A DNA stretch of 34,158 nucleotides from Candidatus Peribacteria bacterium RIFOXYB1_FULL_54_35 (GTDB lineage Bacteria > Patescibacteriota > Gracilibacteria > Peribacterales > Peribacteraceae). The translations under genes and the position numbers were made by a program. The DNA is taken from positions 42,788-76,945 of the forward strand of contig MFYJ01000007.1 of assembly GCA_001787755.1 (NCBI GenBank). Direction: 5' to 3'. The notes beneath the pieces are model-generated. The model saw nothing but the letters and a program-made list of their open reading frames with translations. It had not been told where the DNA came from and did not search any database. Each line of letters starts with the position of its first letter. Position 1 is the first letter of the stretch. Of the stretch, positions 20,417 through 30,528 are shown piece by piece.

Positions 20417-20491
20417 GGGTCAGTAGCTCAGGGGTAGAGCAGTAGGCTTTTAACCTATTGGCCGTGGGTTCGATTCCCACCTGACCCACCA
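20417..20491 (+). tRNA. tRNA-Lys (anticodon TTT), CCA encoded
   Basis: Acceptor GGGTCAG pairs with CTGACCC, followed by A and CCA. The anticodon loop CTTTTAA gives TTT. The T arm is GTGGG-TTCGATT-CCCAC. A TACAAT box at 20400-20405 lies 11 bases upstream. The GIY-YIG ORF starts six bases after the 3' end. Confidence 0.97.
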
Positions 20492-20497
20492 AGCGTT

Positions 20498-20776
20498 ATG
20501 AAGAAGATTGGAGTCTACATTCTCAGGGGAAAACGGTACTACGTTGGTAGCACTGGTGATCTTGAGCGTCGTCTTTGCCAACACAGGGATGGCCATACTC
20601 ACACCACAAGAAGAATTGGGGACTGGGAATTGGTAAGATTCATCCCCTGCAATTCCCTCGAAGAGGCGAGGCAGCTGGAGATGAAGATAAAAAAATCGAA
20701 GAATACTGTTCGTTGGGTGGTAGAGCAGCCCCGCACGCGCTTGCGCGCTGCGGGGTTGGCCGTGGGCTCGTTCTGA
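20498..20776 (+). CDS. GIY-YIG domain nuclease-like protein beside tRNA-Lys
   Basis: 92 residues. GVYILRGKRYYVGSTGDLERRL carries the GIY (VYI) and YIG (YVG) elements and the catalytic arginine region. E59 or nearby in ARQLEMKIKK fits the metal-binding glutamate. It belongs with the short stand-alone UvrC-N-terminal-like GIY-YIG proteins (YhbQ/URI type), whose roles are mostly unknown. The domain proper ends near residue 75. The rest (EQPRTRLRAAGLAVGSF) is read through a broken tRNA-Lys copy. The ORF is therefore bracketed by an intact tRNA and a tRNA fragment, as if inserted with a target duplication. Confidence 0.8.
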   Translation: MKKIGVYILRGKRYYVGSTGDLERRLCQHRDGHTHTTRRIGDWELVRFIPCNSLEEARQLEMKIKKSKNTVRWVVEQPRTRLRAAGLAVGSF

Positions 20777-20812
20777 ACGCAGTGAAGGATTCGATTCCCA
20801 CCTGACCCACCA
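20715..20812 (+). pseudogene. Broken tRNA-Lys copy with hairpin in place of the anticodon arm
   Basis: GGTAGAGCAG (D arm) is followed by a GC hairpin at 20729-20755 (CCCCGC...GCGGGG) where the anticodon arm should be. Next comes TTGGCCGTGGGCTCG, then a 19-base insert in the T loop (20771-20789). The final 23 bases, 20790-20812, are identical to the tRNA-Lys 3' end, CCA included. It cannot decode. It overlaps the 3' end of the GIY-YIG ORF. Confidence 0.75.
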
Positions 20813-25402: not shown

Positions 25403-26722
25403 ATGCCATCGGTTCTTCAATGTTTTCCTTTTATGCCAAAGAAATTCCTCTTCGTCTCTCTCTCAGCGCTTATCAGTGACATTGCCTGGCAAATCAGGAA
25501 GGAAGGCAATGAGGTGAAGTATTTCATTGCAGATCCGGGGGAGAAAGAAGTCGGGAGCGGGTTTGTGGAAAAGGTGGATAAATGGGAAGACTTTGTCGAT
25601 TGGGCCGATGTCGTTATTTTTGACGACACCCTCGGCCTGGGCGAGAAAGCACAGAAGCTGCGTCAGCAGGGGAAAGCGGTCATTGGTGGTACTCCCTACA
25701 CGGATAAGCTGGAAGATGACCGGTCGTTCGGGCAGGAAGAAATGAAGAAAAATGGGATCAACATTCTTCCCTATCAGCAGTTTTCCTCTTTCCAGGAAGG
25801 GATCGCGTTCGTGAAAGCGAATCCAGGCAAATACGTTTTGAAACCCTGCGGGGAGGCTGCCAAGCAGCTGCTTTTCGTGGGGAATGAGGAAGACGGCAGC
25901 GATGTCATTCGCGTGCTCTCTGCCTACCAGCATACGTGGCATAAAGAAGTGAAGGTGTTCCAGCTGCAGAAGAGGGTTGTTGGGGGCGTGGAGATCGCGG
26001 TGGGAGCTTTCTTCAATGGGAACGAATTCATCACTCCTATTAATGTGAACTTTGAACATAAAAAATTATTCCCCGGAGAGCTGGGTGTTTCCACGGGGGA
26101 AATGGGGACACTGATGTTCTGGAGCGAGCCGAACCGCCTATTCAATCAGACGCTGAAGAAAATGGAGGAATCCTTACGCAATGAGAAGTATGTCGGGTAC
26201 ATCGACATCAACTGCATCGTCAATGGCAACGGCATCTATCCGCTGGAATTCACGAGCCGGTTCGGATACCCCACGATCAGTATCCAGTATGACGGCGTTA
26301 TTGGGGGTATGGGCGAGTTTTTCTATGCCATTGCCACAGGGCAGCCGGTGAAGCTCAAAACGAAGAAGGGGTTCCAGGTGGGTGCGAGAATTGTTGTGCC
26401 GCCATTTCCGTTTTACGATGCGAAGAAAACATTTGAATCGTTCTCCAAAGACGCGGCGATTGTGTTTAAGAAACCCATGCCGGAAGGAGTGCACATCGAA
26501 GATGTAAAATTGGAAAATGAAGAGTGGATTATCACAGGGAGTGCCGGTGTGGCGCTCATCGTCACTGGATGCGGCATGACCATGAAGGAGGCTCAGAAGC
26601 AGATGTACAGCCGTATCGGAAATATTCTCATCCCGAACATGTACTACCGTACTGATATCGGGAACCGGTGGTTCGAGGATAGCGACAAATTGCACACCTG
26701 GGGGTATCTGCGTGAAATGTAA
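25403..26722 (+). CDS. PurD-like ATP-grasp ligase
   Basis: 439 residues, or 429 from ATG 25433, where the first strand (MPKKFLFVSLSALISDIAW) begins. The N-terminal pre-grasp domain is followed by the ATP-grasp core: GKYVLKPCGEAAKQLLFV as glycine-rich/lysine strand, YIDINCIVNGNGIYPLEFTSRFGYP as the metal-binding Glu/Asn region. The order and the end resemble glycinamide ribonucleotide synthetase. With no other purine genes nearby, it may join another amine to a carboxylate instead. Subtype unsure. It is upstream of the 55-aa gene by 33 bases on the same strand. Confidence 0.78.
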   Translation: MPSVLQCFPFMPKKFLFVSLSALISDIAWQIRKEGNEVKYFIADPGEKEVGSGFVEKVDKWEDFVDWADVVIFDDTLGLGEKAQKLRQQGKAVIGGTPYTDKLEDDRSFGQEEMKKNGINILPYQQFSSFQEGIAFVKANPGKYVLKPCGEAAKQLLFVGNEEDGSDVIRVLSAYQHTWHKEVKVFQLQKRVVGGVEIAVGAFFNGNEFITPINVNFEHKKLFPGELGVSTGEMGTLMFWSEPNRLFNQTLKKMEESLRNEKYVGYIDINCIVNGNGIYPLEFTSRFGYPTISIQYDGVIGGMGEFFYAIATGQPVKLKTKKGFQVGARIVVPPFPFYDAKKTFESFSKDAAIVFKKPMPEGVHIEDVKLENEEWIITGSAGVALIVTGCGMTMKEAQKQMYSRIGNILIPNMYYRTDIGNRWFEDSDKLHTWGYLREM

Positions 26723-26755
26723 TCACCTCAACGGGATTACTTTCCCACCATTCCT

Positions 26756-26923
26756 ATGGCAAATATCAAATTGTCGGAAGCGCAGCGCAAGCGGCTGGAA
26801 CAGGAGGCGAAGAAGCGCGGCTACGCCCCCGGGCAGTTCCTCGATCTTGTGGCGAAGGGAGTGCGCATCGTCGCCGATCCCATCCCGCCGGTTCGGTGGC
26901 TTTTCAAAAAGAAGAAGAAGTAA
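26756..26923 (+). CDS. Small basic protein of 55 residues
   Basis: Begins MANIKLSEAQRKRLEQEAKK, continues with GYAPGQFLDLVAKGVRIVADPIPPVRW, and ends LFKKKKK. The first half is a charged helix resembling ribbon-helix-helix or anchor peptides. The centre is hydrophobic and the end strongly basic. Function unknown. It is 33 bases after the ATP-grasp stop and probably cotranscribed. The 3' 125 bp from 26804 recur at 29939 as a 5'-truncated copy, so the gene end seems to be the target of the AT-rich island. Confidence 0.65.
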   Translation: MANIKLSEAQRKRLEQEAKKRGYAPGQFLDLVAKGVRIVADPIPPVRWLFKKKKK

Positions 26924-26928
26924 GGAGG
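26804..26928 (+). repeat. Left 125-bp direct repeat bounding the AT-rich island
   Basis: Matches 29939-30063 at 121 of 125 positions, starting GAGGCGAAGAAGCGCGG and ending TAAGGAGG just after the stop codon. The spacing is 3135 bases. Confidence 0.92.
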
Positions 26929-26974
26929 GAGGATACGTTGCTGGAGCAAAGCCAGATGGAGCTCCTTATGGGAA

Positions 26975-26989
26975 CTTATTACAGAATGA
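26975..26989 (+). repeat. Island boundary motif, copy 1 (CTTATTACAGAATGA)
   Basis: Lies 28 bases before the HNH gene. The wider context, CTCCTTATGGGAA then CTTATTACAGAATGA, matches the copy at about 28812-28838. A third copy is at 27541-27555. Confidence 0.6.
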
Positions 26990-27005
26990 AGGAGGAACTA
27001 TAGTG

Positions 27006-27011
27006 TAAAAT
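27006..27011 (+). promoter_or_regulatory. -10 box of the HNH gene
   Basis: TAAAAT, preceded directly by TG, ends six bases before the ATG at 27018. Confidence 0.55.
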
Positions 27012-29879: not shown

Positions 29880-29938
29880 TTGGACATGCCCAAACCATAC
29901 CCACAGGGCAGTCAAGGTGGAGATGAGTCCCGCATAAC

Positions 29939-30063
29939 GAGGCGAAGAAGCGCGGCTACCCTCCCGGGCAGTTCCTCGATCTTGTGGCGAAGGGTGTGCG
30001 CATCGTTGCCGATCCCATCCCGCCGGTTCGGTGGCTTTTCAAAAAGAAGAAGAAGTAAGGAGG
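29939..30063 (+). pseudogene. 5'-truncated copy of the 55-aa gene; right direct repeat of the island
   Basis: Carries the last 39 codons and stop of the gene at 26756, with four base differences in 125. The frame runs up to a TGA at 29924 without a start codon, so it is not expected to be made. It marks the right edge of the AT-rich island. Confidence 0.85.
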
Positions 30064-30070
30064 AGATCTG

Positions 30071-30328
30071 TCAGCCTAATTTACATGCTTCTTCTAGGTG
30101 CTTCTTTACGAATGCTCTGCCTGAATGGGATTTAAGATATTCCTCAAATTCTTTTGCTTTTGTGTAACTGACAAATGATACGGCCATTCGCAGTTTCCAC
30201 GGTTTGTGCTTGTTTGTATGAATACTTTTTCCGCCGTTGTGTTCGGTGAGTCTACGTCGGATATCATTTGTCATTCCGATGTACCAGTGTTTCTCGTTCT
30301 CTGATTCAAGATAGTACACATAGGGCAT
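30071..30328 (-). CDS. GIY-YIG domain nuclease-like protein
   Basis: 85 residues. YVYYLESENEKHWYIGMTNDIRRRL has the GIY (VYY) and YIG elements and the arginine region. The glutamate in AKEFEEYLKSHSGRAF completes the active site. It is of the short stand-alone YhbQ/UvrC-N type; a role is not established. It is the second such gene in the window and again lies near tRNA genes. A minus-strand TAAAAT box lies exactly six bases before the ATG. It starts just outside the right repeat of the island. Confidence 0.88.
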   Translation of the reverse strand: MPYVYYLESENEKHWYIGMTNDIRRRLTEHNGGKSIHTNKHKPWKLRMAVSFVSYTKAKEFEEYLKSHSGRAFVKKHLEEACKLG

Positions 30329-30334
30329 AATTCT

Positions 30335-30340
30335 ATTTTA
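30335..30340 (-). promoter_or_regulatory. -10 box of the GIY-YIG gene
   Basis: Minus-strand TAAAAT, six bases before the ATG at 30328; leaderless spacing. Confidence 0.6.
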
Positions 30341-30379
30341 TTTGCCCGGCTCCGTTCTTGTCATGCTCGAACTGCGCCG

Positions 30380-30456
30380 AGGCATCCGGCTTCGTGTTTT
30401 TTGGCTTCGCTACAATCTCGGCGTAGTTCTATGCTTGCATAGAACGAAGCCGGATG
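30380..30456. repeat. Inverted repeat at the 3' end of tRNA-Gly(CCC)
   Basis: Arms CATCCGGCTTCGT (about 30380-30392) and ACGAAGCCGGATG (about 30444-30456) touch the encoded CCA of the tRNA. An inner hairpin GTTCTATG-CTTG-CATAGAAC lies at about 30425-30444. The layout resembles the inverted repeat at the 3' end of tRNA-Arg. Confidence 0.7.
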
Positions 30457-30528
30457 GAGCGGGATACGAGAATCGAACTCGCGTCTCAAGCTTGGGAAGC
30501 TTGCATACTACCACTGTACTAATCCCGC
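30455..30528 (-). tRNA. tRNA-Gly (anticodon CCC), CCA encoded
   Basis: Acceptor GCGGGAT pairs with ATCCCGC, then T and CCA. The anticodon stem CAAGC/GCTTG encloses loop TTCCCAA, giving CCC (glycine). The T arm is ACGAG-TTCGATT-CTCGT. Confidence 0.94.

Follow-up and report, generated by a model that had tools for sequence, protein, structure and literature searches.

Small GIY-YIG nuclease genes and hairpin-armed dead tRNA copies at bacterial tRNA genes: a probable selfish element specialised on tRNA genes

SegB of phages T4 and T6 is described as a free-standing GIY-YIG homing endonuclease that lies beside tRNA genes, cuts tRNA genes and drives recombination-dependent amplification of segments carrying tRNAs together with the nuclease, with RAWTSGAAC given as its motif (PMC13096335). 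Fungal mitochondria offer a second precedent, mobile ORFs accompanied by duplicated gene 3′ ends, which are described for Allomyces atp6 and for Glomus atp6, atp9, cox2 and nad3 (PMC3630166). A third comes from CPR bacteria, whose rRNA genes carry insertion sequences with LAGLIDADG endonucleases, an instance of homing endonucleases spreading in essential RNA genes (PMC11270868).

Here we analysed a 34,158-nucleotide stretch of DNA (hereafter the window) from the 1.56-Mb genome of Candidatus Peribacteria bacterium RIFOXYB1_FULL_54_35 (G000), in which a tRNA-Lys gene, a small GIY-YIG ORF and a broken copy of the same tRNA follow one another. The locus consists of the following features:

20417..20491, + strand: intact tRNA-Lys(TTT) with encoded CCA (ARAGORN and Rfam, 76.5 bits)
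20442..20458, + strand: 17-nt anticodon stem-loop of the intact tRNA, for which the dead copy has a hairpin (sequence and positional comparison)
20498..20776, + strand: GIY-YIG nuclease ORF, 92 aa (Pfam PF01541, E 7e-11; alignment; codon analysis)
20719..20728, + strand: dead copy, 3′ part of the D arm, GGTAGAGCAG, within the end of the ORF (sequence)
20729..20755, + strand: GC hairpin, CCCCGCACGCGCTTGCGCGCTGCGGGG, where the anticodon stem-loop would be (positional comparison, folding)
20756..20770, + strand: dead copy, variable region and 5′ strand of the T stem, TTGGCCGTGGGCTCG, identity 14/15
20771..20786, + strand: bases inserted in the T loop of the dead copy (net insertion 23 nt)
20787..20812, + strand: dead copy, T loop to CCA, GGATTCGATTCCCACCTGACCCACCA, identity 25/26, the final 23 nt identical to the intact tRNA

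This order of elements had been proposed in a first-pass annotation made from the sequence alone, and it was confirmed with ARAGORN, Rfam, Pfam and sequence comparison: the intact tRNA is followed by six bases (AGCGTT), the ORF from its ATG at 20498, and the broken tRNA-Lys copy. Alignment likewise bore out the identity of the last 23 bases of the two tRNA sequences, and the ORF does run into the tRNA fragment, ending at 20776 with the dead copy beginning at 20719. The anticodon arm is replaced by a GC hairpin, as described, but the hairpin is not perfect: it contains one bulge among 12 pairs, occupies 27 nt plus one retained closing pair in place of the 17-nt stem-loop, and has a folding energy of -23.1 kcal/mol that none of 500 shuffled sequences equalled. 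The T-loop insert, first given as 19 bases, amounts to a net 23 nt, since the spacing between the copies changes from 298 to 321. With up to two mismatches allowed, this insert occurs once in the genome and was therefore rejected as a member of a genomic repeat family. A group I intron was also rejected, the intact tRNA being uninterrupted and the Rfam scan containing no intron family. In the tRNA scan of the genome, 20417..20491 was the sole copy found of the lysine tRNA decoding TTT, and the second tRNA-Lys is CTT.

Two further observations concern the surroundings of the locus. Relative to the neighbouring glycosyltransferase gene, the tRNA-Lys unit is inverted in comparison with the same-genus genome G002 and other relatives (loci L019, L025, L030 and L027 compared), and the window orientation is also present in G039 (L027). 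The ORFs at window positions 26712-27008 and 29880-30167 have a near-identical stretch in common (PGSSSILWRR..RRFGGFSKRRRSKE), a repeated DNA segment.

The conserved domain of the window protein spans approximately residues 1-74, and the tail beyond residue ~74 is encoded by tRNA-derived DNA. Residues Y7, Y15, R25, H29 and E61 are invariant in the protein alignment, which places the protein in the GIY-YIG superfamily. Between seven relatives, pN was 0.13-0.27 and pS 0.68-0.96; the ORF is under strong purifying selection, and the copy in G042 has a stop. UPF0213/YhbQ proteins are small GIY-YIG proteins, and neither they nor SLX1 are known to be mobile or tRNA-linked. The nearest solved sequences to the window ORF were UPF0213 BH0048, SLX1 and UvrC, all weak matches, and the relation to UPF0213 and SLX1 is weak. 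The AlphaFold model was of moderate confidence (pLDDT 73.8), and a Foldseek search with it returned only weak GIY-YIG matches. Relatives of the protein were absent from 50,697 phage records (E 1e-5), 72,556 plasmid records and viral contigs, and carriage by phages or plasmids was rejected on that basis.

A survey of the same genome revealed that the window locus has counterparts at other tRNA genes. Among 14 GIY-YIG matches, one is UvrC-sized (an 803-aa open frame); 8 of the 13 others have a tRNA on the same strand within 260 nt 5′ of the gene (binomial P ~6e-17). The first-pass annotation had proposed to look for GIY-YIG ORFs behind other tRNAs, and they are present, the tRNAs in question being Lys, Arg, Gln, His, Tyr, Pro, Gly and Ala. 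At the Lys, Gln, His, Tyr and Pro loci the tRNA 3′ end is repeated downstream over 14-26 nt, and at the His and Pro loci a copy of the tRNA 5′ end lies upstream as well, so that there the intact tRNA and the ORF stand between two pieces of a broken tRNA. The Gly locus falls within the window:

30455..30528, - strand: tRNA-Gly(CCC), immediately 5′ of another GIY-YIG ORF (tRNA scan)
30071..30328, - strand: second GIY-YIG ORF, 85 aa, 126 nt past tRNA-Gly(CCC) (Pfam, E 2.6e-15)

A dead copy was searched for at this locus (30071-30528), and none was found within the stretch searched.

In a DNA search of 191 related genomes, units of tRNA and ORF were recovered for three tRNAs, namely tRNA-Lys(TTT), Lys(CTT) and Arg(TCT). 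Every complete unit among them continues with GAGCAG, a hairpin and TTGG, and then with the 3′ half of its own tRNA. The pattern GAGCAG-NCCCGC..GCGGGN-TTGG occurs at 19 places in 13 of the 191 genomes, the reversed control at none; this recurrence and the reversed-pattern control led us to reject chance or a simple repeat. A scan with the protein alignment, which used protein similarity alone and not tRNA context, yielded 47 loci, 43 of them with enough flanking sequence. A tRNA lies on the same strand within 260 nt at 39 of these 43 testable loci (upstream of the ORF at 33, downstream at 6) and on the opposite strand at none. The hosts comprise Peregrinibacteria, Gracilibacteria, several CPR lineages, Bacteroidota (including Pedobacter, Belliella, Parapedobacter and Botryobacter), Acidobacteriota, Planctomycetota and Alphaproteobacteria.

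Twenty of 33 loci have dead tRNA copies, and these match the neighbouring tRNA whatever its type (Lys, Arg, Gly, Val, Ala or Asn). The alphaproteobacterial loci mostly show the ORF beside a tRNA without a dead copy. The first-pass annotation had named two findings that would speak against its reading, the ORF without a tRNA fragment and the fragment without the ORF, and both occur: the former at several alphaproteobacterial Pro, Thr and Ser loci, the latter at L053, L045, L160 and L163. ORFs alone and dead modules alone show that its "minimal mobile unit" is not obligate or fixed in content. Rather than speaking against the association, such lone ORFs and modules are better read as copies that have decayed, that vary in form or that are served in trans.

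Sites lacking the insertion, which the first-pass annotation had proposed to look for among relatives, were found in Belliella, Pedobacter and Peregrinibacteria as presence and absence at the same site in related genomes. Belliella G258 and B. calami align without gaps over 2192 nt, up to 12 nt into the working tRNA-Ala of G258; the start of that tRNA coincides exactly with the start of the outermost dead module of B. calami, whose intact tRNA begins 176 nt further on. This comparison covers the left junction, the native right-hand side being a contig break or rearrangement. Pedobacter G214 retains both flanks (85-86% identity) and the tRNA without ORF or dead copy, and the site is occupied in P. 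planticolens. In the latter, the native terminator follows the intact tRNA, and the one following the dead copy is similar to the G235 element; the place of the native terminator indicates that the insertion entered behind the tRNA and did not split it. In Peregrinibacteria, L025, L030, L054 and L039 share the gene order TatD - tRNA-Lys - glycosyltransferase, the last two carrying the insertion there and the first two lacking it.

Comparison of the dead modules revealed a stable hairpin in place of the anticodon arm in nearly all of those examined, across phyla, with a sequence that depends on the lineage: GGCCGACCTGGTCGGCC in Acidobacteriota, TCCCGAC..GTCGGGA or TTCCG..CGGAA in Bacteroidota, and CCCCGC..GCGGGG in Peregrinibacteria. 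The hairpins are often 17-18 nt long, replacing 17 nt. Thirty of them were compared with 500 shuffled sequences each, and in every case fewer than 8 of these equalled the hairpin in stability. To speak of a "rebuilt fragment", as the first-pass annotation did, therefore understates a recurrent and lineage-varying feature. Palindromes or inserts were also seen in the D and T loops of dead copies (D-loop positions in L163 and L069, the T loop in the window), which suggests that all three loops of dead tRNAs gain inserts.

Upstream (left) modules in G013, G033, G042, G040 and G124 consist of the tRNA 5′ part, the hairpin, the 5′ strand of the T stem and a linker, after which the intact tRNA follows. 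The left modules measured cease to match the tRNA in or immediately beside the T loop (positions 51-61), apart from one distant match and one match to a second intact tRNA. In G124 the outer 5′ end, which is broken, reads GGGTCAG and the intact tRNA GGGTGTT, so that the intact tRNA there is no simple copy of the broken one. Amplification of modules is most extensive in the Belliella calami array L145 (G193:C8:73000-80500), with 21 hairpin-armed tRNA modules, five GIY-YIG ORFs and two tRNA-Val genes; five left modules measure 90 nt and the right modules 100 nt. Approximately ten left modules are present in the Belliella sister species G260. ARAGORN labels some L145 modules as tRNAs of unknown type, and its tRNA-Leu(TAG) at L036 1487-1559 (reverse-complement coordinates) is a dead hairpin module of a tRNA-Arg, showing that hairpin modules can be mis-annotated as tRNAs.

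We consider it probable that these loci carry a selfish, homing-type element specialised on tRNA genes, which breaks them and keeps or supplies a working copy. The anatomy, its recurrence across phyla and tRNA types with ORF and tRNA on the same strand, the empty sites, the amplified modules and the purifying selection on the ORF all point to this reading. The ORFs at other tRNAs, the empty sites and the same anatomy across phyla accordingly lend good support to the earlier proposal of a homing nuclease acting on a tRNA target. The arrangement is found in very different bacteria and at many tRNA genes, which suggests a so far undescribed family of selfish elements that occupy tRNA genes and spare one functional copy.

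From these features we infer that a small GIY-YIG nuclease of ~75-95 aa, free-standing and consisting of the catalytic domain alone, would cut within the tRNA body, and that the break would be repaired by recombination with element-bearing copies, the flanking tRNA halves acting as homology arms and the ORF and dead modules being added in the process. The outcome would be one intact tRNA, with the ORF and dead modules next to it or surrounding it; this intact copy would keep the cell alive and make loss of the element risky. A complete element would begin with a promoter and a series of left modules (tRNA 5′ part, hairpin, 5′ strand of the T stem, linker), continue with the intact tRNA and the ORF, and end with a right module made of the 3′ part of the D arm, the hairpin and the 3′ half of the tRNA; the window locus has the right-hand part only. 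The hairpin probably renders dead modules useless as tRNAs and unrecognised as targets, and they would escape cutting because the anticodon arm is gone. Arrays such as those of Belliella are what repeated break repair from neighbouring modules would leave.

Other routes could yield parts of this anatomy. Islands insert in tRNA genes by integrase-type integration, and the junctions at two-sided loci are exactly those predicted if a small circle carrying a D-loop to T-loop core with the hairpin recombined with tRNA genes in an integrase-like manner, leaving A-hairpin-b′ as the left and a-hairpin-B as the right junction. We regard this route as unlikely, given that the unit of ~300 nt contains no integrase or other recombinase ORF and that the GIY-YIG ORF alone is common to the units. 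There is a similarly small chance that mobility is guided by structure, with the nuclease recognising hairpins or cruciforms and the hairpin arm serving as an active recombination site rather than a protective scar. The nuclease has no separate DNA-binding domain, its nearest solved relatives UPF0213 BH0048 and SLX1 are structure-specific nucleases, and the shape of the hairpin is kept while its sequence varies; these solved-structure matches are weak, however, and the sequence evidence fits the hairpin as target or immune site alike. Passive decay, in which a tRNA is duplicated in tandem and genomic palindromes then enter the dead copies at random, the ORF being a bystander, is already disfavoured and in our view quite improbable: palindromes in the D and T loops do imply that insertion is not limited to the anticodon position, but among the dead modules examined, from several phyla, the hairpin nearly always sits at one and the same position of the tRNA, and the ORF adjoins tRNAs far more often than chance would allow. 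An RNA function, in which the dead modules would be co-transcribed with the tRNA and serve as decoys resembling tRNAs or as processing signals, is very improbable. Arm-sized hairpins are kept in tandem noncoding modules, and the first dead module lies at the native tRNA start position behind the native upstream region, but the acceptor 3′ strand is missing from left modules and the 5′ strand from right modules, which makes a complete cloverleaf impossible.

Against the selfish-element reading, the intact tRNA-Lys is not visibly recoded although it is a predicted target, the tRNA-Lys of same-genus G002, a genome without an ORF match, being 100% identical to that of the window. A recoded intact tRNA as a resistance mechanism is consequently unsupported for Lys; acceptor stems do differ in P. 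planticolens and G124. The lone ORFs and lone modules, and the P. planticolens insertion behind an unsplit tRNA, also weigh against the reading. More tentatively, the selfish elements may form a new class of bacterial mobile element, present in several phyla, in which a GIY-YIG nuclease with hairpin-armed modules recognises tRNA genes by DNA structure and destroys the native tRNA at some sites, leaving the host dependent on the element's copy in a natural cut-and-rescue drive.

The open-access literature searched yielded no description of this arrangement of tRNA, nuclease and hairpin-armed dead module, and hairpin-armed dead tRNA modules appear to be undescribed. If the selfish-element reading is right, the tRNA genes of many bacteria would host a widespread, unnamed selfish element, retained because the tRNA is indispensable to the host. 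Such an element would be a counterpart in nature to synthetic cleave-and-rescue drives, and would account for the arrays of tRNA-like debris that appear as odd tRNAs in the output of annotation tools. Cultured carriers exist in Belliella, Pedobacter and Parapedobacter.

Among described systems, SegB has in common with the window-type elements that it is a GIY-YIG, free-standing and tRNA-adjacent nuclease, a likeness drawn from its description; it differs in being a phage gene, and hairpin-armed dead tRNA modules are not reported for it in the part of the source used here (PMC13096335). On the other strand, its motif (GTTCSAWTY) fits many tRNA T loops in our own comparison. The matches in the window are the T loops of the two GIY-linked tRNAs only, two matches being the chance level, and, judged by eye, only 5 of the genome's 8 GIY-linked tRNAs have the motif; it was dropped as evidence for a target rule on both counts. 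The CPR rRNA insertions are intron-like and lie inside rRNA genes (PMC11270868), whereas the intact tRNA of the window locus is uninterrupted and no intron was found.

The fungal mobile ORFs resemble the window locus in joining an endonuclease ORF to a duplicated 3′ part of the target, with the native 3′ end downstream and a functional gene end kept (PMC3630166). Their targets are protein-coding mitochondrial genes, however, the atp6 example is a LAGLIDADG ORF, and neither hairpin substitution nor upstream dead modules are reported in the excerpted source (PMC3630166). In the fungal pattern, the dead 3′ copy is native and the functional 3′ end imported, and the terminators of P. planticolens indicate the opposite. 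By analogy, the tRNA-nuclease element would work in the manner of SegB and the fungal mobile ORFs.
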